Both the position numbers and the translations under genes were made by a program. Below, piece after piece: positions 394 through 54,044 of a stretch of DNA of 64,000 bases. The stretch covers positions 131,149 to 195,148 of the forward strand of contig JAKUCV010005714.1 of assembly GCA_028386065.3 (NCBI GenBank). Direction: 5' to 3'. The stretch comes from Turnera subulata. Taxonomy: Eukaryota; Streptophyta; Magnoliopsida; Malpighiales; Passifloraceae. The notes beneath the pieces were generated by a model that saw only the letters and a list, made by a program, of their open reading frames with translations, did no database searches and had not been told where the DNA came from. Position 1 is the first letter of the stretch, and the number at the start of each line of letters is the position of its first letter.

Positions 394-458
394 TGTGAAC
401 ACCCAAATTTGACCCACGGAAATTTTACTAAATTAGACTTCGTACATGTGTAGACTTA

Positions 459-690
459 GGACCAATGAGATGATTTGATCCAAGGTTCAAGCAAAATATG
501 AATTTTAATTTAGCAAAATTATTGTATTTTGATGAACTAAACCTTCATCCACTTAAATCCTAAGAATAATGAGATGATTTAACCTTAGGATAAAACATAT
601 AATAAGGTTTATTTGCATTCGAATGCATTCCTTGGGCCTTTTATTTATTTCCTACCCAATTATATTGAGATGATTTACTCATGGGTTAGG
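459..690 (+). other. Three TGAGATGA stem-loops in the U3 of the 5' LTR
   Basis: Three inverted repeats share the apical sequence TGAGATGA(T). Site 1 has GGACCAA (459-465) facing TTGATCC (475-481). Site 2 has TCCTAAG (558-564) facing CTTAGGA (584-590), with inner TAA/TTA pairs. Site 3 has CCTACCCA (651-658) facing TGGGTTAGG (682-690). Stems differ between sites but stay self-complementary. The same three positions are occupied in the 3' LTR, with cores near 9153, 9257 and 9353. Confidence 0.65.
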
Positions 691-990
691 AATGGATTTA
701 AGGGTCCAAGTTAATTATTCTCCAGAGTTTGTCTAGCCCACTAACACATTTCTTACAGATCAATTTTAGCACTGATTTTCGTGGAAAATCAGAGTTAATT
801 ATCATTTAATTAGATTATGTGTTTTTGGTATGATTTAGGGTGTTAATGGTAATCTTTTGATTATGGAATGATTTGGGGGAGTGATGATCAAGTAATTGAG
901 TGATTCTGGGTAGATTAGGGGTTGATTACGCGGTAGGATCAAATCATGCCTGAATTAGGGGGATTGGGGGTCCGAAAAGGAAAGAAAGGG

Positions 991-1095
991 TGAAACGTGG
1001 GGCGACCGGCGGCCATCTCGCGAAGACCGCCGGCTGCCGGTGGGCATCCACACAAGACGCCGGCAGTGGATGACCGCCGGCCATGGCGGTCATCA
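991..1095 (+). promoter_or_regulatory. GC-rich inverted-repeat cluster upstream of the LTR TATA box
   Basis: The segment contains several GACCGCC / GGCGGTC arms. The clearest is ATGACCGCC (1070-1078) facing GGCGGTCAT (1085-1093) around a six-base centre: a 9-bp perfect inverted repeat about 130 bp upstream of the TATA box. Equivalent clusters occur at the same place in the other Tat-type LTRs here (near 9691-9735, 25976-26075 on the minus LTR, and 37025-37125). Function is inferred only from position and conservation. Confidence 0.6.
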
Positions 1096-1219
1096 CCTTC
1101 CAGAATCCCCAATTTTTCCCGATTTTGTTTCTTTTTTGATCCTACGTGGTTTTGGACAAGATTTTCGGGCATAATCTTCACCATTAAGCAAGTCCGCGCC
1201 CCTAGGCTTCCCAGAGCAC

Positions 1220-1227
1220 TATAAATA
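1220..1227 (+). promoter_or_regulatory. TATA box of the 5' LTR
   Basis: TATAAATA lies in the context cactataaataggacccctcac. The same box and context recur in the other Tat-type LTRs at 9861, 37247 and 53234 and, reversed, at 25832-25839. Transcription would start about 30 bp downstream. Confidence 0.8.
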
Positions 1228-1933
1228 GGACCCCTCACACGAATTTCAAGGGACACACAACATTCCTCACATACACATCCATAAGCTCTTCTTGCTTGGA
1301 GAAACTCTACTTCTCCAAGTTTAGAAATATTTTCTATATCAAAAACTCTGGATGATTTTCGTGGGGAGCATCAAGCGGTAGTCTAGCAAGGAGGAGTCAA
1401 GAAGAGAATCAACCATAGAGCTAAGGAGTGGCAAGAAGGTGGGTGTAGAACTCGACCCATTGCAAGCAGCTAGAGGAGGGCTACATAAGGTAATCCTAAA
1501 TCCTTTTGATTGATTCTTGGTGATTGATTGCTGATGCTTTTGATGATGTAAGTGGCCACTTTGTGCCATGTTTAGAACTACGTGGCTTTGACCCCTATCA
1601 CTCGGGTACGTAGGCAGTCTCGGTTTCACAACAGGATGCAAGCCAAGTCTTTTCCTCCCCGTTTTTTTTATTTTCCACACTCTTACACACTTCCACAAGG
1701 TTTCGACCCAACACGGATGGGTGGCTAACACCTTCCCATCCGTGACGAACCCCCGATCCCATGTCTTTGGTTCGCCATGACCAGTTGCCTAAGGAGTCAT
1801 TCAAGGGTTTTTCCTAAGTTTTGTCCCTAATAAAACTTAGGTGGCGACTCCAATGACATGGGACAGACCCGAGGATGAAGGTGATAAAGAATAGGTGAGA
1901 AGGCCCAAGTGATTTTGGGTCGGGTTCTCATAG

Positions 1934-1953: not shown

Positions 1954-2691
1954 GTAGTGGGTTTAAGAAATCTTGTGCAGTCATAGAGCTTTATGTATCT
2001 TTTTGTTTGTCATCATAAGTGCCCTGCATTCATGATGATTTATGTGAAGCCTTTACCGTAAGAGGGCGAGGGAAGCCAAGTACACCACATACATTCTTTA
2101 AGTGATGGTGGCTTGCATGAACCCGTTTCTCGATGTTTAGCAATGATGGGGATTAACTGGCCTGGGACCTAAAGCGATATCCATTATCACATGTGATTAG
2201 GTCAACCTACTCCCTAGCGGCAGTCTTTTGGCCCCCAACCAGCTGCATACCCTGAGCATCTCATGCATTATGAATCAATAAGTGGTACCTGCATTTGCAT
2301 GGATCTTGTTTTGTGGTGTACATATGTGTATATCTTGTTATTTTGGAATTCGAATCTATGCATACATGGGGTTTGGGAAAGGAGAAAAGAGGAGTAATCA
2401 AGGGGACGGAGGCGCTCCATATATTCTCGTAGTGACTAATCAGAATTCAGCAGAGGATCACTTTGAGAAAATTTGAGTGGATGTCCAATTGCCCTAAGAA
2501 CTGGAGAAATTAGGATTTCATCGTACATGTCATTATGCATTGAATTTTAAAAAAAATAAGACACACCGAGTCGAGAGTCGGCCCATGTTCCACCTCTTTT
2601 GTCCAAACCATTTGTTATCAACTTTTTCTTTTGAGACCACCCAAACAAGGCACTAAAACCCACTTCTTTACCTGGGCAGTGAAGGGCAACC
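1954..2691 (+). other. Untranslated leader of element A
   Basis: This lies between the primer-binding site and the first sense ORF. No gene, RNA gene or clear repeat is visible. Confidence 0.6.
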
Positions 2692-4563: not shown

Positions 4564-7110
4564 TCAAGACCATCTCTTCATGCTCCTGGGTTGGCGAACC
4601 GGTCGGGTGCACTCCTGAATAGTATCTTCAGAATCACCTGGGGTAGGGTCGGTAGGACGAAGGGTCGGTTGAGGGGAAGGAGGAGGCACAAAAGGCCTAG
4701 AAGGATGGGGATCCCGAGGCAACGGCATAGGGCGAGTAAACCCTCCCTCCTTCACACAGGAAGTCAACTCTCGTATCTGAATGGCTTGAGCTATCAGAGT
4801 CACCTTGGCCCGCCCGAGCAACTTCCATAGTCGAGAAACCTCAGGAGCCGGGACCTATTACAATGGGAAGACCAACCAAACCATAGGAGAGGGGAAGAAA
4901 GAAGATATTCAAGGCGATGATCAGGAAGATACCGTGGTAATATCAACAGTGAATGGTGGAAAGTCAGGGGGGAGATCCTCAGAAAAAGGCACTTGACAAC
5001 GCCTATACGAGTGATCAAAAGTCTCACAAGTGGCCTCACATACCGGAAGAATAGGACCAGACATAGAAAAAGATGCCCCGGTGCCTTTTTTCCCTTATGG
5101 GGCGAAACTCTAACAAGACAGACCAGCACTAGTCACTGATCCTCCCGCCTCTAGGGTAGTCAACGGTGGCATTAAGTGCGTCTTCATGAAGGAAGAATAG
5201 TCACCAGGGAGAGTCAAGTCATCAGCCTGATGATCCAAGTAGTCGCCCTTGGCGGCTTGGCCCCGTTCATTGATATCTTGCTTGGAGAGCGGAGGATCAG
5301 GAGGTATCCAAGGAAATTCTATGGTTTGTGCTCAAACGCGGTCCCCAAGGTACCACACCACCATACCGTGATATCCTATCAGACATCGACAATGATCAAT
5401 CACTAAGGTCGGAGAATCAATCCTCTCCAATCTGTCCTGGTATGCCGTGAAGGGAGAAAATTGGACCTGCCAATGGGTGTTCAGTAAGATAGTAGTGCCC
5501 GAACGGGATTTCTTTTAACTGGTAAAATTTTAGGAGACATAAAGACAAAGAAAGAAGGGTACCTTGTCCGATATGGCGACATAATCTATACAATGACGGG
5601 ACCACACTCGGTCATGGGCATGACTCCTAGTCCCACGATTCGGGGAGACCGGCCATGCCACCTCGCCCGGCGGCAGCTTCGGAGCAGATAGCCCAAGGTA
5701 CTCTTGACCCCACACCTGTAAAGGTCAACTGGGTAAACAAAGAAATGAAGAGACGACTAAATATGGTAGGGAATGACAAGAGTGAAAGCCATACCTCCCA
5801 GATCCAGGCCGAACCATAAAGATGCTTGGCAGCAAGCCGGGAAAAGTTGGACATTTCTGGGTAGGCATTCGCAAAACCCGCCGAAGCCCAGTCGATCCTC
5901 GGACTATCTAAATGGACAAGTGATGCCAATAGGTCACATCGAACCCGATCGCTAACAGAAGAAAAAAGAGACCTGCTCATGCTTGTCAATATAAAACCTC
6001 GAGTTCTTTGCTCAGTTGTCCCAGGGTAATGAGGGTCCAATAGGGCATCCTGCAGCCATTTGGGTGATACCTCACATGTACGGACCCAGTTGGGGGCAAG
6101 TCCCACCAATTCTTGAAATTGGTCAAGAGCTAATTGCTGGTCGAAGATAACTGGGTCACCTCGGAACAACAACCCAGTAATGTGAGTGAAGTCCGAAGGA
6201 GTCATTGTCATCTCGGCACAAGCAAGATGGAAGGTACTATTAGTATCCCACCACCTCTCGCCTAGTGCTGACATAGCCTGAAGATCGACTTTTTCCCTTT
6301 GGAAAGTACAAAAGAAATCCCACAGCCCGACTCTCCTGATGATGTTTTGAACAGGCTTGTTCTTTTTCACATGATCAAGGATGAGATGGCGAGCATTAGT
6401 CCCGGCGTGATTCCGTTTCCTCTCCTTCGAGTCCTGGATGGATACACCAAACGAAGTCAAAACCTGCGCCAACCCGGGTTTAGCAAGATCAAATCCAGTC
6501 CTCACATATCGAGACATGTATCATTGGGATGGGATTACACATTTGAATCATGCATTCCAACACCATGGCATAGTTTTATTTACGGGTCAAAACACAAGAA
6601 AGTCACAAAAAACCGCCCTGGTTAAGTTTGAAATTGGCCAAAAGTGGACAAGCCCATCAATACCTTGCCGTTCAACATTAACCTTATGTATTCACAATGT
6701 CAAAACAGTACCCGAGCCATTCGAAATCTCCAAACTTCATCAAGAACCCAAATCCCTCAATGTGGGCAGGACTTTAATCTGTGACTTCTTGTGTTTAATC
6801 CATGAAATAAACATAGGGAAAAGCATTATAGACATCCCAGGGGCATTCCTAAGAATTCAAATACAACATACACCACACGAATTCGAATCAAGGGGCATAT
6901 GGGCACACACTTAAAAATCAATCAAAGTAAGAATCTAATGGGTTTGTAGGTTTAGAAATCACTTGCTTGGACTTCATGGAGACGAGAAGAGATGTGCCTA
7001 TCTGGGGATTTCAATAACCAGCTTGGATTCTCCTCCGGATTGGATTTTGGATGATACTTCCTCATGGATTCTTCCCGCGATTTAGGAAGATTTGATGAAG
7101 ATGATGCCAT
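4564..7110 (-). pseudogene. Captured plant mobile domain (PMD, MAIN-like) gene, antisense to element A, introns retained
   Basis: On the minus strand an ATG at 7110 starts MASSSSNLPKS. The main exon (about 6500-5795) reads ERWWDTNSTFHLACAEMTMT, then PSDFTHITGLLFRGDPV, which are hallmark PMD motifs (FHLxxGEMTxTLxDVxxLxGLxxxGxPV). Splice signals are visible. A GTATGG donor at 5794 and a TTTACAG acceptor at 5716 give a 79-bp intron joining WIWE to VWGQEYLGLSAPKLPPG. A GTACCC donor after IDYVAISDK is followed by an acceptor ending TTTTACCAG, then LKEIPFGHYYLTEHPL. A stop or frameshift appears near 5417-5425. A helical and proline-rich tail (LIAQAIQIRELTSCVKEGG) reaches about 4564. PMD proteins act in gene silencing and are repeatedly found inside plant transposons. 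Exon 1 to exon 2 splicing is uncertain. Confidence 0.75.
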
Positions 7111-8640: not shown

Positions 8641-8789
8641 CATGAGGTAACACCTAGACATAGGATGAGGTTCACAAACCTCGGCATGAGGTAATACCCG
8701 AACATGAGATGAAATGCACAAACCTCGAAATGAGGTAGCACCCAGACTAAGACAGTAAGGCCAACGACCCGATAGATAAGATGATCCTA

Positions 8790-8965
8790 GCACCTCGGGA
8801 TGAGATGATTCTCGAGAATATGGGATGAGATGATTCCCATAAACCGAGGGCCAGCCCCTCAAATCTTTGGATGAGATGATTCCCGAGAATCTAGGATTAG
8901 ATGATTCCTAGAAACCGAGGGCCAGCCCCTCAAACCTTCAGGATGAGATGATTCTCGGAGCGGAG
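8790..8965 (+). repeat. Array of TGAGATGA stem-loops before the 3' LTR of element A
   Basis: About five units share the loop TGAGATGA (once TTAGATGA) inside different stems: CTCGGGA/TTCTCGAG (8794-8816), ATGGGA/TCCCAT (8820-8840), TGGA/TTCC (near 8872), CTAGGA/TCCTAG (8891-8911) and AGGA/TTCT (near 8940-8955). Changes on one arm are matched on the other. The phrase ccgagggccagcccctcaaa separates units. Confidence 0.7.
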
Positions 8966-9080: not shown

Positions 9081-10600
9081 TGTGAACACCCAAATTTGAC
9101 CCACGGAAATTTTACTAAATTAGTCTTCGTACATGTGTAGAATTAGGACCAATGAGATGATTTGATCCAAGGTTCAAGCATAATATGAATTTTAATTTAG
9201 CAGAATTAATGTATTTTGATGAACTAAACGTTCATGCACTTAAATTCTAAGATTAATGAGATGATTTAACCATAGGATAAAACATATAATAAGGTTTATT
9301 TGCAATTGAATGCAATCCTTGGGCCTTTTATTTATTTCTTACACAATTATATTGAGATGATTTATTCTTGGGTTAGGAATGGATTTAAGGGTCCAAGTTA
9401 ATTACTCTCCATAGTTTGTCCAGCCCATCAACACATTTCTTGCAGAACAATTTTAGCTCTGATTTTCGTGGAAAATCAGAGTTAATTATCATTTAATTAG
9501 ATTATGTATTTTTGGTATGATTTTGGGTTTTAATGGGTAATGTTTTGATTATGGAATGATTTGGGGGAGTGATGATCAAGTAATTGAGTGATTTTGGGTA
9601 GATTAGGGGTTGATTACGCGGTAGGATCGAATCAGGCCTGAATTAGGGGGATTCGGGGCCCGAAAAGGAAAGAACGGGTGAAACGCGGAGTGACCGGCGG
9701 CCATCTCGCGAAGTCCGCCGGCCATGGCCGTCATCACCTTCCAGAATCCCCAATTTTTCCTGATTTTGTTTCTTTTTCGATTCTACGAGGGTTTGGACTA
9801 GATTTTCGGGCATAATCTTCACCATTAAGCAGGTCCACGCCCCTATGCTTCCAAGAGCACTATAAATAGGACCCCTCACACACATTTCAAGGGACACACA
9901 ACATTCCTCATATACACACCCATCAGCTCTTCTTGCTTGGGGAAACTCTACTTCTCCAAGTTAAGAAATATTTTCTAAGGCAGAAACTCTGGAGGATTTT
10001 TGTGGGGAGCATCAAGCGGTAGTCTAGCAAGGAGGAGTCAAGAAGAGAATCAACCATAGAGTTAAGGAGTGGCAAGAAGGTGGGTATAGAACTCGACCCA
10101 TTGCAAGGAGCTAGAGGTGGGCTACATAAGGTAATCCTAAATCCTTTTGATTGATTCTTGGAGATTGATTGCTGATGCTTTTGATGATGTAAGTGGCCAT
10201 TGTGTGCCATGTTTAGAACTACGAGGCTTTCACCCCGATCACTCGGGTACGTAGGAAGTCTCAGTTTCACAATGGGTTGCCAGCCAAGTCTTTTCCTCCC
10301 CCCTTTCTGTATTTTCCACACTCTTGCACACTTGCACAGGGCACACTTTTCTCTTTAATTGCACAAGGTTTCGACCCAACACGGATGGGTGCCTAACACC
10401 TTCCCATCCGTGACGAACCCCCGATCCCATATCTTTGGTCCGCCATGACCAGTTTCCTAAGGAGTCATTCAAGGGTTGTTCCTAAGTTTTGTCCCTAATA
10501 AAACTTAGGTGGTGACTCCAATGACATGGGATAGACCCGATGAAGAAGGTGATAAGGAATAGGTGAGAAGGCCCAAGTGATTTTGGGCCGGGTTCTCGCA
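9081..10600 (+). repeat. 3' LTR of element A (1520 bp)
   Basis: Matches the 5' LTR, with TATA at 9861, three TGAGATGAT stem-loops and a PBS-like TGGTGACTCC at 10510-10519. It lacks 47 bp of the GC-rich cluster, explained by deletion between two CCGCCGG repeats (at 1027 and 1074 in the other LTR). It ends ggttctcgca. Confidence 0.92.
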
Positions 10601-10605
10601 CCTCC

Positions 10606-13177: not shown

Positions 13178-13657
13178 AACATCGATGTTCTGGTTTTAGA
13201 CATCGATGTTCCTGCCTTCAAACAATCTTTCAAAAACAGGTAGTAGCTCAGAACATCGATGTTGGAATCCTAAACATCGATGTTCTCATGACCGTTGCTC
13301 TTGAAAAATCTTTTGCAACAGCAAAACATCGATGTCCAAATTTGAGACATCGATGTTCCATCAATTGATGTCTTTAAATTGATTTTTGCCGAACCAAATG
13401 AACATCGATGTTCTTCAAGTAAACATCGATGTTCCCATGATGATGCTTTCAAAATGATTTCACCGAACCAAATGAACATCGATGTTCTTCAAGTAAATAT
13501 CGATGTTCCCATGATCATCAGCTTTAAAATAATTTTGCCGAACCAAATGAACATCGATGTTCAGTGAGTAAACATCGATGTTCTAGTGACCGTTGGACTC
13601 AATAATTCATATTTACTGTTAAAACATCGATGTTCCCTTTTGTAAACATCGATGTTC
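13178..13657 (+). repeat. Seven pairs of AACATCGATGTT palindromes in the LTR
   Basis: Core starts: 13179/13200, 13253/13274, 13326/13347, 13402/13423, 13476/13497, 13551/13572, 13624/13646. The spacing inside pairs is 21 bp in six cases and 22 in one. Pairs are separated by about 50-60 bp. Three consecutive pairs are preceded by ccgaaccaaatg and two are followed by accgttgg. The array lies upstream of the TATA box. Confidence 0.9.
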
Positions 13658-13959
13658 TCATAACCGTTGGTCTAATAATTCAAATCTACTGGAAGCTTTT
13701 ATTGAACTGAAGTCAACTAGAGTACAAGGAGCCGTTGCAGGAGCTTATCCCCCACACTCAAATTCTATAAAGAGGGATGTTTACACCTCGGGAAGCTCAT
13801 CCCATCAATTGTGCAAAATCTGAGTGTATACTTAAGCTAAAAGATTTGGTATTTGATCTGGTTTTTCTACTTACTGTGCGAAACACATTCTAAGGGGTAA
13901 TTTGTAGGCAAGACTTGGTTTAGTTTTACTTGATACTCAAGTCTAGGAATAGATTTGAG

Positions 13960-24778: not shown

Positions 24779-25081
24779 TACGGGGCATGCTACCCCATAA
24801 TTTGGGTTAATTTTTAAGGGGTATGCTACCCAGTTAGGTGTTTAGTTTTTCTGGGCATGCAACCCCATGTCTTGGGTCAAGTTTTTCGGGGTGTTCACCC
24901 CATGTTTTGAGTTAAGTTTTCTTCGGGGCATGCTACCCCATTATGTGTTTTGCTCCCCGGGGCTTGCTACCCCGTTATGTAATATGTTTATTTCCCAGGG
25001 CATCCTACCCCATTATGTAATGTGTTTTGTTTCTCGGGGTACGATGCCCCGCTAGGTGATATGTTCTTTGAGGCATGCTAC
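24779..25081 (+). repeat. GGGGCATGCTACCCC array, left half
   Basis: About nine degenerate copies of GGGGCATGCTACCCC spaced 35-50 bp, with variants gggtatgctaccca, gggcatgcaacccc, ggggtgttcacccc and gggcttgctacccc. The linkers share phrases such as ttatgtaatatgtt. The array was split by a solo LTR and resumes at 35412. Confidence 0.85.
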
Positions 25082-26087
25082 TATGAATACCCGACCCAAA
25101 ATCCCTTGGGCCTATTCACCTATTCCTTTTCACCTTCTTCCTCGGGTCAATCCCATGTCAATGGAGTCGCCACCAAAATTTTATTAAGGACAAAACATAG
25201 GAAAAACCTTCGAATGGGGTCAACCGGTCATGGCGAACCAAAGACATGGGATCGTGGGTTCATTGTGGATGGGAAGGTGTTAGGCACCCATCCATGTTGG
25301 GTCGAAACCTTGTGCAATTGAAGAGTACAATTGTACCTTGTGCAGGTGTGCAAGTGTGGAAAATAAAGAGAAGGGGAGAAGAAGAAGATTTGGAACAAAA
25401 GGGAAAATAAAAATATGTGGGCTTGAGTCTCCACCACTAGAGACCACCTACGTACCCCGACGACCGGGTTCAAAGCCCACGTAGTTCTTGTCATGGCATC
25501 ACAACAGCACTTACATCATCAAAACATCAGCATATAATTAGCCAGAATCAAAGAAAAAGGGATTAGTGTTACCTCTTGTAGCCCTCCTCTAGCTCCTTGA
25601 ATTGGATTGTGTTCCGCACCCACCTCCTTGCCACTTCTAAGCTTAATGGTTGATCCTCTTCTTGGTTCCTCCTTGCTGGACTATTGTTGATGTTTCCCAC
25701 GAAAGTCCACCAGAGTTTCTGCCTATAAATGATTTCTAGACATGGAGAGGCAGAGTTTCTCCAAGCACTCAAGCTTATGGGTGTGTATGTGAAAAACAAT
25801 GTGTGTCCCTTGAAAAGTGTGTAAGGGGTCCTATTTATACTGTTTTGGGAAGCCTAGGGGCATGGACCTGCTTAATGATGAAGATTATGCCCGGAAATCT
25901 AGTCCAAAACCGCATAGGATAGAAATTAGAAACAAAATCGAAGATTTGGGGGAATCTGGGAAGTGATGACTGCCATTGCCGGCGGTCATCTGCTGCATTA
26001 CCTCCAATGCCGACGGTCATGTGTGGATTTCTGCCGGCACCTGGCGGTCTTCACGAGATAACCGCCGGTCGCCCCGCATGTCACCCG
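25082..26087 (-). repeat. Tat-type solo LTR, part 1 (3' portion of the LTR), TSD gctac
   Basis: On the minus strand the LTR runs from TGTGAACACCC at 35411 to ...GGGTATTCATA at 25082, interrupted by the copia element. The duplication gctac is at 25077-25081 and 35412-35416. This part holds the reversed TATA box (25832-25839), the PBS-like decamer (25163-25172) and the GC-rich inverted-repeat cluster (25976-26075), which the copia insertion immediately abuts. Confidence 0.88.
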
Positions 26088-27622
26088 TGTTAGTTATATA
26101 TCCAAAAGCCAATCTATGGATGATTGTAGTCATGTATATACTTTGAGGTTATTCCAATAAATATGATTATGAGATAATTGCTTGCACATATTTATAACCC
26201 TAGTTCATATTTGATATATTCTTAAATGTCCCTAGTCGATTATTATTACGGATGGGTTGTAATAATAAATTAAGACTAGCGTATGTTGAGAATTGCATAT
26301 GTGATATGAATTCTACATACGGGTACAAGTTGGAAAACTTGTGGACTGGACCGACCCACATAAGAACCCTACATGGAACGTTATATGTATGTCATTAGTG
26401 GTTCTTATAGATGTATTGTCCTCCGACCTGAGATCGTCAAGGTATCCAACACATGAGTCATGTACTTTGATATTATTCCTAGTCATCCGTAACTGGGTGG
26501 ACATAAGGGTAGTCATTGGGTATATGACGAGTATGTAGTGGGTTTTGATTGATCAAGACGGGATTCGTTCGACCCATATAACGGGTATATTATCATATGG
26601 TTTCTTGATAGAGTTGAACTGTTAAATGCATGGCCATGCTCGGATTGGGTGATATGGTGATATCACGGGTATCCGTTTTATACAGTTAACTCGGGGAACA
26701 AGAAACATAGATTAAACATATACGAGATTGGCATATTCCATGTCTCGTGTTTGACCTAGATAATGGGACGAAAGGACGATGACATGTTCCGAGCCATATA
26801 GAATCAGTACTGAACTTGTCGTTCGGGCAGCAATGATGTGTTGCTAGACGCCGCTCTTTGCTTATAATTGTAAAATGAGATTTTACGATTATTGCCGGAT
26901 GTTACAGGTGCCGACAGGGTCACACACATAGAGCCATTGATTCGAGCAGATGGTTGAACCATGGTTGGACAGGGTATGGTTGGACCGTGGTTGGACTGTG
27001 GTTGGACCAGGGTCGGTTTTGGCACAATTATTAGCTGAATAATTGGCCAGACATTAGTGGTAAGGTGGTGTGTTTTCAGGTTGTCCATTAGTGGAGGCAT
27101 GATAATGAATGCCATTATCTTATCACCTAAAGGGGCCTTATGTTGGCCACTATGCTAATGGACTTTTATGAGTGGGATTGGGACTTTGTGGTGATCTGAT
27201 CACTCTCTACATTCTGCTCCTTCTCTCTCACGTTTTGCTTCTGCCAAATTCAGAGAAAAACACCACACACACCTCTTCTTCATTCTTTGTGAAAGAAAAA
27301 AGATAACCATACACACAAACACCACAAGGTTGTTGCTTCCGGTTTACTCTTGCTAGCACATCAGTCCGGGAGTGCTCGAGGTTTGATTCGTAGGACGATT
27401 TCAAGCCAATCACGGTTTGTGTGGATACCGTAGAGGAGCCAGGCCGTTGTCTTGCTCTTGCTGATTCCGTCCAGCATTTAGGTGAAAGATCCTAGTACTA
27501 CAGGTACGAAAATTTTGTTATACGGTTTATGCATGCTTCACTTGGTTCTTGGTTAAGTTTCCTTGTTTTCACTGCATATTGTGCTTGTTATGAGTGTCAT
27601 AATAGCTCTAGGGAAACTTACA
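26088..27622 (+). repeat. 5' LTR of the copia element
   Basis: 1535 bp, ending gggaaacttaca, followed at once by g and the primer-binding site. Confidence 0.93.
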
Positions 27623-27623
27623 G

Positions 27624-27636
27624 TGGTAGCGGAGCC
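27624..27636 (+). other. Primer-binding site of the copia element
   Basis: TGGTAGCGGAGCC is a variant of the TGGTATCAGAGC initiator-methionine-tRNA site usual in copia elements. Confidence 0.75.
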
Positions 27637-28080
27637 TTCTTGTGTAGCTCTAAACCGTATTGGTGATGCATATATAATATGATCATCTTAGCATGTGTAG
27701 GCATCACCTTGTGTATGTGTTATGCTAAGTGATTTTGAACATGATATGTTTGTGTATTATCAAATGATATGCTAATTTGATTTGGTATAAATATGATTTG
27801 CCATGCAAATATATGCATATGTTTGATAGGTTTTGCAAATATACATGATGTGTTATTTGTGATAGAGCATGATCATGTCATATTGCATTCATTTGTGTAT
27901 ATATATGTGATATATATGTTGTTGAGGTTGATTTGTCAAAAGTGTTTTGACAATCAGCACTTGATTGGTATGTGATATCAATCAAGATGTTTATGGCAGT
28001 AGGTCAAAGAGTTCGACCAAGAAAAACCGAGTGTCGGTTTGTGTTTTGAACGAATGTCGTTCAAGTACATACAGGCCAAA

Positions 28081-28674
28081 ACATCGATGTTGGTGTGACC
28101 AACATCGATGTGGGCATGAGCTTAGGCTTGGCCGAATCTTCATAACATCGATGTTGTGTGACAAACATCGATGTTCTGATGAAATGAGCCTCGGCCGAAC
28201 CTCCAAAACATCGATGTTGTATGACCAACATCGATGTTCTCTTGCAACCACTCAACAACATCGATGTTTAAATGTTAAACATCGATGTTATTTGAGCTCG
28301 GCCAAATTGATTGAATTTCCAGAATTCAAATAACATCGATGTTTATGAAACAACATCGATGTTATTGAGTTCCAGGAGTTCAAACATCGATGTTGGGTAT
28401 AAACATCGATGTTTTTATGCTACTGCCAAAATCTTGAATTTTTGAGTTACTCAAACATCGATGTTGTAGAGTCCAACATCGATGTTCTTGAGCCTCGGCC
28501 AAATGGTTTGGAGTTCAAGTACTCAAAACATCGATGTTGAAGTGCAAACATCGATGTTTTTGAGATTCTGCCAATACAGTGGGAGAGTGTGACTCTCACA
28601 ACATCGATGATTATGATTAAACATCGATGTTTATATGCCACAACATCGATGTTCCAAGATGAACATCGATGTTT
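28081..28674 (+). repeat. Ten pairs of AACATCGATGTT palindromes in the copia leader
   Basis: Twenty copies, almost all perfect. Core starts: 28081/28102, 28145/28165, 28208/28228, 28258/28279, 28333/28353, 28384/28403, 28455/28476, 28528/28548, 28601/28621, 28643/28663. Spacing within pairs is 19-21 bp; between pairs it is 22-54 bp. Spacers often carry a tcggccgaa or cggccaaat phrase. The array lies between primer site and gag, where copia and retroviral RNAs hold packaging and dimerisation signals. Reading frames across it (HRC and NIDV repeats) are artefacts. Confidence 0.93.
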
Positions 28675-28689
28675 CACATGTAATTTTGG

Positions 28690-29239
28690 TTTCCAAATTT
28701 ACATAACATCAATGTATGCTTTGTTGAATATATGCATGAGTTGTATGAACATATATTGGTGAAATATTAAGTTCTTAGTTGCCTTCCATGATAAGCACTC
28801 ATCAAGCTTAAGATCAACAATTGGTAGTTTTTGCCAAAGCAAGGTGCCATTGTTTATCCTAAGAAGGTGCGAGTGGATAATTGTAATATCTCGATTGCTT
28901 GTTGTGGGTTTGGACTTAACTAGGTTATCTTAATAGGATTAAGGACCTAGAGGCAAGGGTTGAGCTATGTCTATAAGATAGACTTGGACAAGATGTTGTT
29001 CACTCAACTATCCAAGAGTTACATAGAGATGTAATTGACAAAAGTTGTCTACCTAAATAGCTATGATGTAAGTTTATCAGCCAAAGCTGACTTATGTTGT
29101 AGTGAAATATGGATCTTGGCCTACTTGTTGTCATTTTATTGATTCATAGTAGGAGCATCATTTAATTAAATTCCTTGTTAAATGATTTATGTATGCATGA
29201 TTCTTATTTGTGTGAGTTGATCTTTGTTGTAGAATTACC
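28690..29239 (+). other. Distal leader of the copia element
   Basis: 550 bp between the palindrome array and the gag start. No further palindromes apart from one decayed acatcaatg near 28707; otherwise nothing recognised. Confidence 0.6.
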
Positions 29240-32200
29240 ATGGCACAAAACACAGGTACATTGTCATTGCGATCAGTCCTTGAGAAGGAGAAACTTAATG
29301 GGAACAATTTCCTAAAGTGGTATCGCAATCTGAGGATCATCCTCAGACAAGAAAAAAAACTGTATGTCCTCGAAGGGGCTGTTCCGAATGAACCGGCGCC
29401 TAATGCACCAAGGGCAGAAAGAGATGCTTACAAGAAGCATCTTTATGATGCAGTGGATGTTGCAGGCTTCATGCTTATGGCCATGGAATCTGAAATTCAG
29501 AAGCAACATGAGCTAATAGGGGCGTTCGATATGATCGAACACCTTAAGATGCTCTTTGAGGAGCAGGCTAGGCATGAGAGGTATGAGACCTCTAAAGCAT
29601 TATTCCAATGCAGAATGGCTGAATCAACACCCGTTAGACCTCATGCACTGAAAATGATCGAATACATTGAAAGCCTTGAGAGTCTAGGGTTTCCTTTGCA
29701 AAAGGAATTGGCTGTAGTCCTTGTCTTGCAATCGTTGTCGGACAGCTACAACCAATTTGTCATGAACTTCAACATGAACCATCTTGATAAGTCCTTGTCT
29801 GAGTTTCTCAATATGTTGGGAACAGCTGAGCAACAAATGAAGACAAATAAATCCAACATATTGATGATTGGTAAAGGCAAAGGAAAGGGTAAGGAAAAGT
29901 TCAACAAGAAGAAGAAGGGTGCCAAAAGGTTTGGCGCTTGTGCTTCTCCTTGTGATCATGTGCTTAAACCCAAGGGTGGAGTTGCAAAGGATGGACATTG
30001 TTTCCATCGCAACAAACCGGGCCATTGGAAGCGCAACTGCCCAGTTTACCTTGAAGAGGTAAAGAGGAACAAGAAGGGAAGTGAGACTTCCACTTCAGGT
30101 ATTTTTGTTATAGAAGCTAATATTTCTACTTCTGCATCATGGGTATTAGATACCAGATGTCGTTCTCACATTTGTGTAAATGTGCAGGAACTAAGAAAGA
30201 GTAAAAGGTTGGCGAAGGGTGAGATAGACTTGCGTGTCGGGAATGGAGCAAGAGTGGCTGCATTAGCCGTAGGGACTTATTTTCTATCTTTACCTAGTGG
30301 CTTGGTTTTGGAACTTGATGATTGTTATTTCGTACCTTCCATAAGCAGAAATTTGATTTCTGTATCTTGTTTGGACAAGAGAGGATTTTCATTTGTAATA
30401 AAGAACAAATGTTGTTCAATTTATTTCAATGATGTATATTATGGTGGTGTGATTTTAAGTAATGGATTGTATGTTCTAAACCTTGAGATGCCGATCTATA
30501 ACTTTAGTACGAAGAAGGTTAGAATAAACGATTCTAATGAAACCTACCTTTGGCATTGTCGTTTAGGCCATATAAACGAAACTCGCATTGCGCAACTCCA
30601 TAGAGATGGATTGCTAGACTCATTTGATTTTGAATCATATGAGACATGTGAGTCATGTTTGTTAGGAAAAATGACTAAGGCTCCCTTTAAAGGTAAAGGT
30701 GAAAGAGCCTCGAACATATTAGGTCCCATACATACTGATGTATGCGGACCAATGTCTACACAAGCTAGAGGTGGTTTTCAATACTTCATTACGTTTACTG
30801 ATGACTTCAGCAGATACGGCTATGTGTATCTAATGAGACACAAGTCGGAATCCTTTGAAAAGTTCAAAGAATTTAAGAATGAAGTACAGAATCAACTCGG
30901 GAAAAGTATTAAGATGCTTCGATCAGATCGAGGCGGTGAATATTTAGACCGAGGTTTTCTTGACTATCTAAGGGATTGTGGTATAGTATCACAACTCACT
31001 CCACCGGGTACGCCTCAATGGAATGGTGTATCCGAAAGGAGGAACAGAACCTTGTTGGACATGGTTCGTTCAATGATGAGTCAAGCTGACCTTCCATCCT
31101 CCTTTTAGGGACATGCACTAATGAGTGCTGCTTTTACACTTAACCGTGTTCCGTCTAAATTAGTTCGAAAAGACGCCATATGAGATATGGACTGGGAAGC
31201 GTCCCAATTTGTCTTTTATGAGGATTTGGGGTTGTGAGGCTTACGTAAGACGTGAAGCTTCAGATAAACTTGGCCCAAAATCTGAGAATTGCCTATTTGT
31301 AGGTTACCCTAAGGAAACTAAAGGGTATAACTTCTATAATCCCACCGACCACAAAGTGTTTGTTGCTCGGACTGCGATTTTTCTAGAAAGACAGTTTATT
31401 TCTAGAAGAATCAGTGGGAGGAAAATAGAACTCGAAGAAGTTCGAGACCTAGAGACTGAGATGGAACAAGAACAGGAACCACAAGATGTTGTGGACGAGA
31501 ATCCTGTTCCTGTAACACACGGACCACGTAGGTCAGATAGGATTCGGCATGAGCCCGAGAGATATGGATTTCTCGTGACTCATACCGGTGAAGTGATGCT
31601 CATAGATGATGATGAGCCCACTACCTATCAGCAGGCCGTTACGGGTCCGGACTCGCAGAAGTGGCTAGAAGCCATGAATTCGGAAATGGAATCCATGTAT
31701 CAAAACAAGGTATGGACCTTGGTTGATCCACCCGAAGGGGTAAAACCCATAGGGTGCAAGTGGGTCTTTAAGAAAAAGACCGACATGGATGGTAATGTGA
31801 TTACCTATAAAGGGCGGTTGGTTGCAAAAGGTTTCAAACAAGTTCATGGTATAGACTATGATGAAACCTTCTCACCAGTTGCCATGGTTAAATCCATCCG
31901 GATTCTTTTGGCTATAGCCGCATACCATGATTATGAGATATGGCAAATGGATGTCAAAACCGCTTTCCTTAACGGAAATCTTTTAGAGGATGTGTATATG
32001 ACACAGCCTGAGGGTTTTGTCGATCCAAAGAATGTCAACATGGTATGCAAATTGCAAAGGTCCATTTATGGACTTAAGCAAGCTTCAAGGAGTTGGAATC
32101 TTCGTTTTAATGATGTAATCAAAGAGTTTGGTCTCATCAAAAATGAAGATGAACCATGTGTTTACAAGAAGGTTAGTGGGAGCACTGTAGTTTTCTTGTT

Positions 32201-33194
32201 GTTATATGTTGACGACATTCTGCTCATTGGGAATGACATTCCAACACTACAGTCTGTAAAGGCTTGGTTAGGAAAGAATTTCTCAATGAAGGACTTAGGA
32301 GAAGCTGCCTATGTGTTAGGCATAAAGATCTATAGAGATAGATCCAAAAGGCTTCTCGGGCTAAGTCAGAGTACGTATATTGACAAGGTGCTAAAGAGGT
32401 TTAGCATGGAGAATTCCAAGAAGGGATTTTTGCCTATGTCACATGGCGTCTCTCTCTCAAAGAGTCAATGTCCTAGTACATCTAAAGAGAGAGAGCGGAT
32501 GAGTCAGATCCCTTATGCTTCGGCAATAGGATCTATCATGTACGCCATGTTATGTACTCGACCGGATGTCGCTTATGCTCTGAGTGTCACGAGCATGTAC
32601 CAATCTGATCCCGGTGAGAGTCACTGGATAGCGGTTAAGAACATCCTTAAGTACTTGAGAAGGACTAGGGATGCATTCCTGGTTTACGGAAGCGTAGATG
32701 AGCTCGTTGTAAAGGGTTACACCGATGCTAGCTTCCAAACCGACAGGGATGACTTCAGATCGCAATCAGGATATGTGTTTTGTCTAGGAGGTGGTGTTGT
32801 ATGCTGGAAGAGTTCTAAGCAAGAGACAGTTGCAGATTCTACAACCGAGGCTGAGTACATTGCAGCCTCAGATGCAGCGAAAGAGGCTGTTTGGATTAAA
32901 AAGTTCGTAACTGAACTCGGCGTGGTTCCTAGTATTGAGAGTCCGATTGAGCTCTATTGTGACAACAATGGAACAATCGCACAAGCTCAAGAACCTAGAT
33001 ACCACCAAAGATCCAAACATATTCTCCGATGCTATCATCTTATTCGAAAGATCATAGATAGAGGCGATGTCAGGCTGTGCAGGGTTCCTTCCGAAAACAA
33101 TGTAGCAGATCCCTTGACGAAGCCACTCACGCAGCAGAAGCATGATGGTCATTGCGCATCCATAGGTATTAGATACATGTATGATTGGCTTTAG
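29240..33194 (+). pseudogene. Copia gag-pol polyprotein, disabled
   Basis: ATG at 29240 starts MAQNTGTLSLRSVLEKEKLN. The gag zinc knuckle near residue 254 reads CFHRNKPGHWKRNC, with Arg in place of the second Cys. The protease active site near residue 304 reads DTR instead of DTG. Integrase shows the H-H and CESC zinc finger, TDVCGPM and SDRGGEY. A TAG at 31106-31108 replaces a conserved Trp codon, and a one-base insertion near 31165-31172 shifts frame. The frame resumes at about 31209 with reverse transcriptase (GCKWVFKKKTD, YVDD near 32206) and RNase H (YTDASF, TEAEY, LYCDN), ending MYDWL at 33194. The second segment is open for 661 codons, so inactivation is recent. Confidence 0.93.
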
Positions 33195-33208
33195 TGCAAG
33201 TGGGAGAT

Positions 33209-34756: not shown

Positions 34757-35411
34757 ACCCGTTCTTTCCTTTTTCGAACCCCAATCCCCTAATTCAGCTC
34801 TGATTTGATCCTACTGCGTATTCAACCCCCTAATCAACCCAGAATCACTTTATTACGTGATTATCACTCCTCAAAACCATTCCATAATTAATAGATTACA
34901 CATTGACACCCATTTAAGCCAAAATCATACCAAAAACACAAAATCTAATTAAAAGATGATTCAACTCTGATTTCCACGAAAATCAGAGCTAAAATTAACC
35001 TGCAAGAAATGTGCTAATGATCTCATTAAACTCTGGGGAATTCTTATTTCATTAACTTGGACCTCTCATTTTATTCCTAACTCAAAAATGAATCATCTCA
35101 TCATACTTGGAATGAAACTAGACCAGGAAGCCCAAATAATGAATTAAAACATATTTTAGTTTAATAAACCTTTATATATATTTTATCCTAAGATTAATTC
35201 TTCTCATTAATCCTAGATTTCAAATATATATAGGTTTAAATTACCAAAATATGTTAGCATCAAAAAAAATTACCAAAATATATTAATTCTACCAAATTGA
35301 ATTTTTAATATGCATTAACCTAGGACCAAATCATCTCATTAATCCTAAGTTCCAGCATGTTCGAAATCCAATTATAGTAGAAAATACATGGGTCAAATTT
35401 GGGTGTTCACA
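34757..35411 (-). repeat. Tat-type solo LTR, part 2 (5' portion of the LTR)
   Basis: Continues part 1 beyond the copia element and ends at 35411 with the reverse complement of TGTGAACACCC. It contains TGAGATGAT stem-loops. The best (near 35325-35350, minus strand) has an 11-pair stem, CTTAGGATTAA facing TTGGTCCTAGG, that closes fully if G-U pairs are allowed. Confidence 0.88.
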
Positions 35412-35720: not shown

Positions 35721-35767
35721 CCCCGAAAATTGTTCTCGACTGATGAGAATGTATGTGATGCCATGGG

Positions 35768-36290
35768 AGGGATGAGATGATTCCCACCAACCCAGAAATG
35801 AGAGAAACCCCGAGTTCCCAGGGAGGACGACTGAAATCCATAGAAAGTAGGTAACCCCAAAATCACCCCCACGGGAGGAGACATATCCCTAGTTAACCGA
35901 GAAGAGAGGATTCTGTGCTAACAATCTAAACACCGAGTCCCCATCGGAGGACGATAAAATCCCGAACCAAACCCGAGTACCACCATGGGAGGATGATAGT
36001 ATCCTTAGTTAGTGAGGATGAAATGATTCCTTGTTAATGACCCGGTAGATGAGAAGATTTTACCAAACCAAACACTGAGTACCCCGTGGGAGGACGATAG
36101 TATCCCTAGTCAGCCGTGATGAGATGATTTTTGGTTGATGACCACCAAACGAACCCGAGTCCCCGTGGGAGGACGATAAAATTCCTAGTTAGCTTAGATG
36201 AGATGATTCTTGGTCAACGAAACCACACACTGAGTCCCCCAAGGAGGACGATAAAACATTGAAAACCTGGGATGAGATTATTCCCGACCC
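35768..36290 (+). repeat. Alternating TGAGATGA stem-loops and ggaggacgata repeats
   Basis: Five stem-loops carry the TGAGATGA (or near) loop with stems such as GGGA/TTCCC (near 35770), AGGA/TTCCT (near 36015), AGA/TCT (near 36200) and GGGA/TTCCC (near 36270). They alternate with five to six copies of gggaggacgata. The same loop, with other stems, occurs at 8790-8965 in element A. Confidence 0.7.
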
Positions 36291-36388
36291 ATAGCACATA
36301 CATTTCAGCGTCAACATCAGCACCTACTCCGTCAATTTTGGGTATTCTTTTATCGTTGTTTTGTCTTCAGTTCCTAAAGACTTACCAA

Positions 36389-36399: not shown

Positions 36400-38203
36400 T
36401 GTGAACACCCCAAATTTGATCCAGTAGTATTTTATTAAGTTATGAATATGTTATTGTCTGTGGATTGATGAGATGATTCGATCCTTAGATGAAATGTGTT
36501 TATAATTTAATAAAGTATTAATATTTTATTAATTTCAAATTTTTTATATATTTAACCTAGAATTATTGAGATGATTTAATTATGGGTTTAATATATTTAA
36601 AGGTTTGGATTTAGTAAAATATGGGTATTTAATTGTTTTAGGCCTTTTATTCTTTTTTGGACCCAATTGAGATGATTTTGGGCATTTAAATGGATAAGAG
36701 CCTAGACTAAATAAATATGGACCCTCCAGCATTTTTAGCCCATCAAAAACCTGGACTTTAGCAGCTCATTAACCCGAATTTTCGTTCAGAATTAGGGCTA
36801 GTATATTGCCTTGTGAGTTTTTTATATTTATGGTATATCGAGTGGAGTGAGGAGAAGGAAAACTAAATTAGGAAGAAGGGTGAGGGTAGGCTACAAGTTA
36901 GGAGGGTTTCTGGAAGTTTAAAACAGGCAAAAACCATTTAGGAAGGGCATGGGAATCAAGTTGGACCGGAATTATGAGGATCAAAACCGGGAAGGAAATA
37001 ACTAATTTGGAAACAAGTACCGGCAGATATGGCGACATGACCGCCAGCACATGGCGGGCTTGGAAGGATGACCTCCAACACTTGGCGGACATCGCGAGAT
37101 GACCGCCAGTGCTTGGCGGGCATTGCTCCTAGTTTTGGCAGTTTTCCGATTATTTCATGTTCTCTTGATTTCGGGTATCTACCATTGGACCTAGGGATTC
37201 AATCCCGAACCTTAGATCAACACCACGTCCAGATCCCCCCAGACACTATAAATAGGACCCCCATTCACCGTCAAAACTCACCAATTTCTCTCTTCCCCCT
37301 CTATACACACATAAGCTTAGGTGCTTGGAAAACTTCTTTGATTCCAAGCTGAGGAACCCTTTCAATGGTCGAAATTCTGGAGGAATTTTGTGGGGAGGAG
37401 TCGGGAGCCAGTAGCAGCAAGAGATCAAGAAGATAAGAAAAATGAAGCAAATTCAAGAAAATCGTTGGAGAAGAAGTGCTGAACCCGAGAAGAAGAATCC
37501 AATGAAGGCAGTCTTAGTATTTCGGCCACATCTGGAGTTGTAGATGTCAATTTACTGCGATCTTGGTGTCTTTGGAAAGGCAAGCAGTAGCCCTACAACT
37601 TTGCTGTTCTAGCCAGACACCAGTTCAGCCTTCTTCTACCCCGAATTCCCTGTTAAAATTCTGCCAAAATTATGTTTAGGAGTGGTAAGCAAGTAGGACC
37701 AAGAGGAGGGCTTCAAGTGGTAAATTGTTCTAATTTTTTCGATTATCTGCAGCTGTGACGTGATGATGCTGATGATGTGATTGTTTATGTGATGCATGTA
37801 AGAACTACGTGAGCTTTGAACCCATGATAGGGGGTACGTAGGCAGTTTGTAGTGGATTGAAACACAAGCTCAATTATTTATTTATTTATTTTTGTTTTGT
37901 CCTTTAACTCTTTTTTATTTTTGTTTTGTGTTGTTTGTGCATGGCATGTATTTATTTTTGATTGCATATGATCTCGCCTCAACATGGATGGGTGCCTAAC
38001 ACACCTTCCCATCTGTGACAAACCCCCGGGTCCATGTCTTTGGTTCGCTATCGGTCGCCTTAGGGATTCATTGGTTGCCTAAGGAAGGTTTTTCCATGAA
38101 TTTTTTCCTTTAACAAAATTCAAGTGGCAACTCCAAAGACATGGATGACGGTTAAGAAGAAGGTGTGGAATACGCCCAATGCATTTTGGGTCGGGTATTC
38201 ACA
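36400..38203 (+). repeat. 3' LTR of the second Tat-type element (1804 bp)
   Basis: Begins TGTGAACACCCC and ends gggtattcaca. It is followed by gaagt, the expected target duplication, whose partner is not in the window. TATA box at 37247-37254, GC-rich inverted-repeat cluster at 37025-37125, PBS-like TGGCAACTCC at 38125-38134. Stem-loops: GGATTGA/TCGATCC (36462-36484), AACCTA...ATTA/TTAATTATGGGTT (36554-36588), CCCAA/TTGGG (36662-36682). No 5' LTR partner is visible. Confidence 0.85.
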
Positions 38204-41490: not shown

Positions 41491-41580
41491 TTTTGTGACC
41501 TAATAGTAAGAGCGAGAGATGTAATTGGTAGATATGAAGTGTGCGGACTTTGAGTGGCTATAGCAATGAAGATGGGGTAC

Positions 41581-52427: not shown

Positions 52428-54044
52428 TGTGAACACCCAAATTTGACCATGAATATTTTTCTAATTTAGATTTTAGGTAGGCTTGAACCATAAGATCAAA
52501 TGAGATGATTTGGTCTTTGGCTAAGGCATACTTAGAATTTATTTTAGTGGAATACATTTTTTATGAAATGGGATTTATCTATTTGGACCCTAGGATTAAT
52601 GAGATAATTTAATCTTACGATAAGAATATACTAGAGCCTAGTTCATCAAAATAATGTCCCAATTTATTCATTTGGGCTATCTTGTTTATTTTAATCCAAT
52701 CATAATGAGATGATTTATTTTTGGGTTAAGTATGAATATGAGGGCCTAAGTTAATAAAATTTGGACCTTTCAGAGTTAAGCAGCCCATAAACGCATTACT
52801 TGCAGACTAATTTTAGCTCTGATTTTCGTGAAAAATCAGAGTTAAATCATCCCTTAATAGTAAATGTATTTTTGGTATGATTTGGGCATGAAATAGGGAA
52901 TTAATGTGTAATCAATCAACTAAGAGATGATTGGGAGGAGTACTAATCAATAAAAGTGGTAATTCTGGATTGATTAGCGATTAATTATGCGGTGGAATCA
53001 ATTCAGGGAGGAATTAGGGGAAACTGGATGCAAAAAAAAGGAAAGAGCGGGGAAACACGGAGGTCTCAGGCGGCCATCCAGCCCATGACTGCCAGCCCTA
53101 GCGGTTAAGCATGCCCAGATTGTCTGATTTCCACGATTTCGCCCCTAATTTGCTTCTACAATGTTTTGGCCCAGGTTTTTGGCTGAAACCTTGGTCATTA
53201 TGCAGGTCCACGCTCCTATACACCCCAGAACTCTATAAATAGGACCAACCACCCCTATCTCCTNNNNNNNNNNNNNNNNNNNNCCCCCGGCACACTCACA
53301 TTTCCGAAGGATCACTCATTATACACACACCCCCATAAGCTTTGTTTGCTTGGAGAAATTCTACTTCTCCAAGCCTAGGAAACCCTCTATAGGCAGAAAC
53401 TTTGGAGAAATTTCGTGGGTATCATCAATTAAAGGCAGCAAGGGTAGACCAAGAGGGAATCAAAGATTAAGTTAAGGAACGGGAAGAAAGTGAGTGCACA
53501 ATTCATCCCAAACCAAGGAGCTAGAGGAGGGCTACAAGAGATAACACTAAACCTTGTTGAGTTTATTATTTGCTGAGATTTTGATGATGATATCGATGAT
53601 GTGAATGCTGTGATGCCATGAATAAGAACAACGTGGGCTTTAAACCCGGTCGCCGCGGTACGTAGATGGTCTCTAGTGGTGGAGACTCAAGCCCAATTAC
53701 TTATTTTTCCCTGTTGTTTCAGTTTCATTTTATTATTTCTGTGCTGTTTGTTTCCACACTGTTCACACACCTGCACAAGGCGTACATGTATTCTTCAATT
53801 GCACAAAGTTTCGCCCCAACACGGACGGGTGCCTAACACCTTCTCATCCGTGATGAACCCCCGAATCCCATGTCTTTGGTTCGCCATGATCAGGTTCATA
53901 AAGGAGTCATTCGAAGGTTTTTCCTCAAATTTTGTCCTAAATAAAATTTGGGTGGCGACTCCATTCATATGAAAATGACCCGAGAAAAAAGGTGAAAAGG
54001 AATAAGTGAGGAGGCCCAAGTGATTTTGGGATCGGGTCTTCACA
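52428..54044 (+). repeat. Tat-type LTR (solo or truncated) with an assembly gap
   Basis: Begins TGTGAACACCC, ends gggtcttcaca. TATA box 53234-53241, PBS-like TGGCGACTCC 53953-53962. Stem-loops: AAGATCAAA/TTTGGTCTT around TGAGATGA (52492-52517), GATTAA/TTAATC (near 52594-52614), TTAATCCAA/TTGGGTTAA (52691-52729). The flanks gtgtc and cctag do not match, so it is not a clean solo LTR. 53264-53283 is 20 n. Confidence 0.8.
53264..53283. other. Assembly gap (20 n)
   Basis: Undetermined bases just downstream of the LTR TATA box. Confidence 0.99.

Follow-up and report, generated by a model that had tools for sequence, protein, structure and literature searches.

The window, that is, the entire 64-kb stretch of DNA analyzed, contains five LTR copies of related elements, namely, the 5' and 3' LTRs of element A, the 3' LTR of element B, the solo LTR C, and LTR D, along with an AP2/ERF protein. 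The sample behind all LTR results consists of these four LTR families, all located in one window. The coordinates are as follows.

394..1932, + strand, 5' LTR of element A (ends set by eye; BLAST match 394-1929)
9081..10600, + strand, 3' LTR of element A (1,520 bp, 89% identical to the 5' LTR)
25082-35411, - strand, solo LTR C, starting at 35411 (target duplication GCTAC at 25077-25081 and 35412-35416, by eye)
starting at 36400, + strand, 3' LTR of element B
40765-41499, - strand, AP2/ERF protein (100% identical to a Turnera subulata [Passifloraceae] protein over 82% of the query, which assigns the window to this species or a very close one)
starting at 52428, + strand, LTR D

Element A was recognized as an LTR retrotransposon on the basis of (i) its two LTRs, (ii) a 5-bp target duplication, CCTCC, at 389-393 and 10601-10605, (iii) a purine tract, GAGGGG, which lies four bases upstream of the 3' LTR in both A and B, and (iv) a putative PBS, with features (ii) to (iv) of A read by eye. 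The solo LTR C is interrupted by a Ty1/copia element at approximately 26.09 to 34.75 kb and represents a double nested insertion. In a BLAST comparison, LTRs A and B matched over 106 and 197 nt (71 to 73%), both farther downstream, and nowhere in the U3. No pol domain was found in the five element A ORFs scanned with Pfam (14 ORFs of at least 90 aa lie between the LTRs), and element A may lack pol. An antisense ORF at 5630-6520 (minus strand) contains a plant mobile domain (PMD, PF10536; E value of 5.6e-17).

Retand elements usually carry TRP28 in their antisense ORF, and PMD goes unmentioned in the same survey, in which LTRs range from 315 to 1,194 bp (PMC11963269); with 1,520 bp, LTR A exceeds this range. 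The domains that define Tat/Retand elements are the RT and an additional RNase H (aRH) (PMC6317226). In this lineage, an antisense ORF lies between pol and the 3' LTR; in element A, the five ORFs scanned yielded no pol to which the PMD ORF could be related. A Tat-type assignment is no more than plausible, with RT and aRH not found in the five ORFs scanned and LTR A longer than the LTRs of the survey. In the non-plant collections, no exact match to the 19-base LTR start was returned by either viral_contigs or genome_contigs, the PBS-like 17-mer had none in viral_contigs, the PMD protein had two pattern matches in viral_contigs, of which none was confirmed, and the 5' LTR of A had no match among plasmids.

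The window contains 25 copies of the word TGAGATGA, compared to 3.08 expected. In the segment at 459-690, which is part of the 5' LTR of element A, the corresponding loops are found at 466, 570, and 666, and each LTR copy (A5, A3, B, C, and D) contains three such sites that are spaced approximately 100 nt apart, with a wider gap between sites 1 and 2 in LTR C. The exact 9-mer TGAGATGAT is present at 13 of the 15 LTR sites, the exceptions being TGAGAAGAA at site 2 of LTR C and TGAGATAAT at site 2 of LTR D. The original prediction of three sites per LTR was thus correct for every copy, whereas the invariance that it had assigned to the loop was slightly overstated. Twenty of the 21 exact copies of TGAGATGAT in the window are hairpin sites, and the remaining one, at 8038, has a flank score of 4. 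At four places (8589, 8705, 19515, and 20838) TGAGATGA is not followed by a T, and the flanks are unpaired at 8589 and 8705, the two of these places that were scored. Flank pairing is best centered by a loop length of 9 (mean of 6.29 pairs out of 8), compared to 4.71 for a length of 8 and 3.46 for a length of 10. In an alignment of the four diverged U3s, fully invariant 9-base windows were observed only at loop 1 and at alignment bases 10 to 20, which correspond to the LTR start, the end that integrase handles. A search of the window against Rfam yielded 0 matches at the gathering score, and a string search of the open-license literature produced no report of the loop motif, its sole match being concerned with potato carotenoids.

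The pairing of the sequences flanking the loop was compared to chance using 24 sites with at most one mismatch in the element zones. This set includes the minus-strand site 35025 and leaves out site 35206, which has two mismatches, as well as the near-duplicate 5' LTR of A. The flank score of the native sites was 12.92, as opposed to 5.58 (standard deviation [sd] of 0.78) with the 3' flanks swapped among sites, and none of 20,000 swaps scored as high. In a motif-blind scan, all k-mers found in 10 or more distinct contexts were ranked by flank pairing. Among 140 9-mers, TGAGATGAT ranked first (12.0) and its reverse complement second (10.6), followed by a word with a score of 6.4; among 28 11-mers, ATGAGATGATT ranked first. 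At a k of 10, ATGAGATGAT was sixth and other words led, and at k values of 5 to 8 neither the motif nor any part of it was among the best six k-mers. As a negative control, we used stretches outside plants that match the two-loop pattern (25 viral and 74 prokaryotic); their mean flank score over 103 strand-loci was 1.37, and the highest mean, 8.9 (L016), was due to a repeat that pairs with itself. Two stems proposed earlier were correct as to pairing and needed amendment in detail: GGACCAA/TTGATCC at 459 contains one C-A mismatch, and at site 1 of LTR D (52501), the stem is shifted in register and encloses a loop of 8 nt.

We then asked for covariation between the arms. In an alignment of 24 sites, termed A1, in which 35206 replaces 35025, 75.8% of the 264 cells were paired, compared to 48.9% after shuffling, and the covariation was 0.684, compared to 0.227 (sd of 0.031) in shuffled alignments, of which 0 of 500 reached the native value; when the partner was slid, covariation did not exceed 0.271. 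Double changes do not discriminate in A1, since they affect 10 of 11 pairs, compared to 9.3 in shuffles (222 of 500 as high). Since the sites are related to each other, arms were also swapped exclusively within homologous sets, namely, LTR sites 1, 2, and 3, two subsets from the 3' untranslated region (3' UTR) of A, and the set from the 3' UTR of B, covering 23 sites and leaving out 8777. The native arms paired at 160 of 207 positions, as opposed to 140.4 (sd of 4.9) in swaps, with 0 of 50,000 as high; counting only Watson-Crick pairs, the values were 133 and 110.0 (2 of 50,000). Single homolog sets are mostly too small on their own: the native arms ranked 3/24, 6/24, and 4/24 for LTR sites 1, 2, and 3, respectively, and 4/6 and 1/2 for the subsets of A, and the 3' UTR set of B alone ranked first among 720 permutations (Watson-Crick plus G-U). 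RNAalifold, applied to the five LTRs, drew three hairpins in which 13 of 85 pairs had double changes, with an unfavorable covariation term of +5.52; LTR B aligns poorly, and in the alignment of the four LTRs without it, 6 of 70 pairs had double changes and the covariation term was -0.06. In both alignments, support from covariation was thus small, and hairpin 3 was drawn without the 9-nt loop. The central claim of the original prediction, that the loop is kept and that the stems are free in sequence yet paired, is borne out by the flank swaps, the covariation in A1, and the homolog-only swaps.

Pairing of the LTR arms extends approximately 46 nt to each side of the loop, and the first ~320 nt of the U3 are able to form three adjoining hairpins of approximately 100 nt each. 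The stems of the original prediction are only the tips of these hairpins, and 12 additional sites are located outside the LTRs, in the 3' UTR. The U3 hairpins are listed below (WC, Watson-Crick; bit scores are those of the covariance model described further below).

420..520, + strand, U3 hairpin 1 of the 5' LTR of A, loop TGAGATGAT at 466-474 (35 WC, 2 GU, 2 AC; 32.3 bits, outside the training set)
524..624, + strand, U3 hairpin 2 of the 5' LTR of A, loop at 570-578 (31 WC, 2 GU, 2 AC; 31.8 bits)
620..720, + strand, U3 hairpin 3 of the 5' LTR of A, loop at 666-674 (31 WC, 3 GU, 0 AC; 26.1 bits)
9107..9207, + strand, U3 hairpin 1 of the 3' LTR of A, loop at 9153-9161 (33 WC, 3 GU, 3 AC)
9211..9311, + strand, U3 hairpin 2 of the 3' LTR of A, loop at 9257-9265 (29 WC, 2 GU, 2 AC; lowest arm score of the 12 long hairpins)
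9307..9407, + strand, U3 hairpin 3 of the 3' LTR of A, loop at 9353-9361 (30 WC, 3 GU, 1 AC)
35046..35146, - strand, U3 hairpin 3 of solo LTR C, loop at 35100-35092 (33 WC, 3 GU, 1 AC, 14 gap columns)
35152..35252, - strand, U3 hairpin 2 of solo LTR C, loop TGAGAAGAA at 35206-35198 (38 WC, 2 GU, 0 AC)
35284..35384, - strand, U3 hairpin 1 of solo LTR C, loop at 35338-35330 (33 WC, 5 GU, 2 AC; top model match, 34.3 bits)
36423..36523, + strand, U3 hairpin 1 of the 3' LTR of B, loop at 36469-36477 (32 WC, 11 GU, 0 AC; fold at ~36425-36520)
36521..36621, + strand, U3 hairpin 2 of the 3' LTR of B, loop at 36567-36575 (35 WC, 4 GU, 0 AC)
36622..36722, + strand, U3 hairpin 3 of the 3' LTR of B, loop at 36668-36676 (31 WC, 5 GU, 0 AC)
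52455..52555, + strand, U3 hairpin 1 of LTR D, loop at 52501-52509 (31 WC, 6 GU, 1 AC)
52554..52654, + strand, U3 hairpin 2 of LTR D, loop TGAGATAAT at 52600-52608 (32 WC, 4 GU, 1 AC)
52660..52760, + strand, U3 hairpin 3 of LTR D, loop at 52706-52714 (32 WC, 7 GU, 0 AC)

To score them, arms of 46 nt were aligned in a strand-neutral manner for 12 long hairpins from the four LTRs (A, B, C, and D). The mean arm score was 38.7 and the lowest 26.5, compared to 7.0 (sd of 7.9; maximum of 33.5) at 500 random positions. The arm score fell to 30.0 when arms were exchanged with the homologous site of another LTR, and the exact permutation placed the native combination at 3/13,824. Nine of the best 40 long palindromes of the window are centered on the motif, and other palindromic repeats in the window reach equally high scores; it is the constant loop, and not the long palindrome as such, that sets these hairpins apart. 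The minimum-energy fold of the U3 of LTR B consists of three adjoining hairpins of ~100 nt. Over the five LTRs, the motif forms the apical loop in the minimum-energy folds at 10 of the 15 sites (read by eye); the motif hairpin is missing at site 2 of A3, site 3 of C, and site 2 of D, and sites 2 and 3 of A5 have a different tip. In hairpin 3 of the 5' LTR of A, the outer stem is good and the tip is poorly paired. A further U3 hairpin, CTCTGATTTTCGTGGAAAATCAGAG at 9452-9486, shows small changes among LTRs A, C, and D and is degenerate in B (by eye).

Read on the sense strand, the 12 long hairpins comprise 389 Watson-Crick pairs, 55 G-U pairs, 11 A-C appositions, 62 other mismatches, and 70 gap columns. 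The share of G-U differs from 0.5 (p of 3.6e-8) and from the value of 0.531 determined at 1,500 random centers in the same elements (p of 2.5e-7). The ratio of G-U to A-C was 20:0 in LTR B, 17:2 in D, 10:3 in C, and 8:6 in A, the stems of the latter being paired without a G-U bias. Because a cruciform would treat G-U and A-C alike, the excess of the former favors sense RNA over a cruciform. Of the RNA (or cruciform) element with tolerated G-U pairs that had been proposed, we therefore retain the RNA; the cruciform and promoter-site readings were set aside on the same counts. A strand-biased mutation process could contribute to the G-U excess, since arms are rich in G+T on the sense strand (0.605 in B, compared to 0.517 in the rest of the LTR; 0.547 and 0.604, respectively, in C). 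The strand question is decided by the long arms only and not by the short tips, in which G-U and A-C amounted to 21 and 8 for the inner six pairs (p of 0.17 against permuted arms) and to 33 and 20 for ten pairs (p of 0.098). Fold z scores, based on 60 shuffles each, were -7.8, -6.5, and -5.7 for the sense U3 of B, C, and D, respectively, and -3.4 for that of A together with its 3' UTR. The antisense values were -2.4 (B), -7.0 (C), -0.5 (D), and -3.6 (A), so that the antisense strand is as structured as the sense strand in C and A. Three control zones of element A had z scores between -0.9 and +0.6 in sense and between -1.6 and +2.5 in antisense.

These data bear on two alternatives. (i) It is very unlikely that the element acts at the DNA level, as a cruciform or as a palindromic transcription factor site within the U3 promoter. 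The hairpins of the 5' LTR are indeed located upstream of a TATA box (~1219-1228, by eye), and antisense folding equals sense folding in C and A, but the sense-strand G-U and A-C counts speak against this reading, a protein site would need conserved arms, whereas the arms here are free, and the loop is present also outside the LTR, in the 3' UTR. (ii) Fold-back template switching, which keeps quasi-palindromes perfect without selection, is a highly improbable source of the pattern. Many tandem and palindromic repeats are found nearby, which speaks for such a mutational artifact, but the copying of arms yields Watson-Crick pairs and no G-U excess, nor does it provide a reason for a single loop common to 3' UTR and LTR hairpins with different arms. 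Taken together, we are confident that the window contains a conserved 9-nt apical loop, UGAGAUGAU, on variable but paired arms and that this structure belongs to the sense RNA.

The 3' UTRs of two elements, A and B, contain twelve shorter hairpins with this loop, of which seven have the exact loop and five have one change. There are six per element, at most ~640 nt upstream of the 3' LTR.

8766..8963, + strand, six short hairpins in the 3' UTR of A, loops at 8777, 8801, 8826, 8872, 8897, and 8944 (4/6 exact)
35762..36292, + strand, six short hairpins in the 3' UTR of B, loops at 35773, 36019, 36050, 36120, 36199, and 36273 (3/6 exact; model scores of 21.0 to 32.3 bits)

In A, a 71-bp tandem unit is found at 8798-8954. 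A covariance model was built on the 24 aligned sites, and training sites match it by construction. With an E value below 0.1, it produced 25 matches in the window, made up of 22 of the 24 training sites and three non-training matches, the latter being located in the 5' LTR of A and nearly identical to sites of its 3' LTR. All 25 are located in a U3 or the adjacent 3' UTR, and the first match elsewhere had an E value of 0.13. Four of the six sites in the 3' UTR of A are full matches below 0.1, and 8801 and 8897 are partial matches (E values of 0.17 and 0.33). As a whole, the 3' UTR of B is not unusually structured (fold z of -0.7; 60 shuffles), and in contexts of 89 nt the mean tip probability exceeded 0.5 for only 10 of the 24 sites in sense and 9 of 24 in antisense.

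In retroelements, it is at the 3' end of the transcript that the U3 sequence is included. With transcription starting at the promoter of the 5' LTR, the U3 would be copied only at this end, so that in A and B the 3' UTR and U3 hairpins would form a single cluster of approximately nine hairpins there. The loop may be read by a protein, with the stem merely presenting it. Because the loop is kept as strictly as the LTR start across diverged families, including one for which the scanned ORFs contained no pol domain, the pattern suggests that the reader is a shared trans-acting factor. This factor could be the Gag nucleocapsid of autonomous partners, in which case the array would be a multivalent packaging and assembly signal; the hairpin structure and Gag-mediated packaging are tentatively proposed together. 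Retroviral packaging signals are usually located in the 5' leader, which counts against packaging from the 3' end.

Several known systems share individual traits with these hairpins. BARE1 and BARE2 provide a precedent in plants for cis signals that an autonomous LTR element shares with one lacking Gag: barley BARE2 does not produce Gag itself but does undergo packaging, and it has retained the packaging signals of BARE1 (PMC3735527). BARE elements belong to copia, and their packaging and dimerization signals are compared here by description only (PMC3735527). In satellite virus STNV-1, there are also many hairpins with a constant loop motif and variable stems; its AxxA loop motif is very short, and in vivo data from the same study speak against a role in packaging (PMC6475782). 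The LTRs of Sireviruses (Ty1/copia) likewise contain short palindromic repeats that are clustered upstream of the TATA box and form hairpins (PMC2829016, PMC10760457), along with an inverted repeat that flanks the PPT. In Sireviruses, however, the arms are conserved, with a CGG-CCG core, and the intervening bases differ (PMC2829016), whereas in our elements it is the loop that is conserved, on freely varying arms, unlike a Sirevirus-type palindrome. Nothing was found that marks the hairpin-bearing elements as copia. As in our elements, Tat/Ogre/Retand elements have an antisense ORF as well as repeats that follow the coding region and precede the 3' LTR (PMC7004042, PMC11963269). Their 3' UTR repeats are hypervariable, family-specific tandem repeats, the origin and function of which "remain unknown" (PMC11963269). 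The terms hairpin, stem-loop, and secondary structure are absent from the main text of the 2025 Retand survey (PMC11963269), as are hairpin and secondary structure from the 2019 Tat-lineage paper (PMC7004042).

The closest counterpart for a different reader is the constitutive transport element (CTE) of MPMV, a 3'-UTR RNA structure with repeated identical loops that is read by a protein (PMC4377836). It stems from an animal retrovirus and has two internal loops on one compound stem, and it is likened here without a claim of homology (PMC4377836). By analogy, it is possible, if rather unlikely, that a host RNA-binding protein reads the loops for export, stability, or translation of the element RNA. 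The near-3' position and the repeated identical loops resemble the CTE layout (PMC4377836), and conservation among families would be equally expected. On the other hand, the CTE binds NXF1 via two conserved internal loops and not via apical ones. We know of no host factor for UGAGAUGAU.

A distinctly unlikely alternative is that the stems of ~100 nt resemble pre-miRNAs and are processed to small RNAs, or that they are a by-product of promoter-region palindromes. Hairpin size and stem length would suit such processing, and small RNAs are drawn to the LTR palindromes of maize Sireviruses, but for Ty3 elements of maize the same study generally saw no clear peak of hairpin-forming sequence (PMC10760457). 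Furthermore, a conserved loop is needless for Dicer products, and silencing ought to favor the loss of structure over its upkeep. From the layout and conservation of the hairpins, we consider Gag packaging the most likely role and a host factor nearly as likely, and we place the pre-miRNA-like, DNA-level, and mutational readings lower. The most far-reaching form of the Gag reading is doubtful: a Ty3-type network, including members without their own enzymes, would share an RNA address label in the form of 3' tandem UGAGAUGAU hairpins that are read by a common Gag for packaging, with stems that diverge to escape homology-based silencing.

Little is known about packaged RNA of plant LTR retrotransposons outside BARE (PMC3735527), and a loop motif common to diverged families offers a concrete handle on RNA recognition for packaging or export. 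It also points to a possible reason for the unexplained short 3' UTR repeats, some of which would be hairpin arrays.

Two further roles of the loop were discarded. A mini-ORF (ATG AGA TGA) is contradicted by the absence of the A in 3 of 24 sites and by the location of the sites outside any leader, and self-kissing of loops is contradicted by UGAGAUGAU not being self-complementary (by eye). The 5' leader of A contains CATCTCA at 2257-2263 (+ strand), which is complementary to seven loop bases; a 5'-3' kissing interaction with the loop is possible, and a chance match is plausible.

Other repeats of the window were noted in passing. (i) An array of GGGGCATGCTACCCC-like hairpins at 24785-25073 and 35447-35694 (+ strand) is located in the apparent 3' UTR of B and is split by the solo LTR C; over 17 sites with at most two mismatches, native arms scored 10.2, compared to 8.8 when swapped (32 of 5,000 as high). 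(ii) A minisatellite at 48518-49588 forms, on the minus strand, small CCT-loop hairpins with covarying stems (GGAGGT/ACCTCC and GGAAGT/ACTTCC); for the 32 sites in 48400-49700, native and swapped arms scored 12.95 and 11.43, respectively (1 of 5,000 as high). (iii) The 12-bp palindrome AACATCGATGTT occurs in two separate tandem arrays, at 13271-13691 and at 28076-28653, the second within the copia element. (iv) The top arm score in the window, 80 of a possible 92, belongs to a long fold-back at 56480, which is possibly a MITE; 99.9% of all positions score 43 or less.
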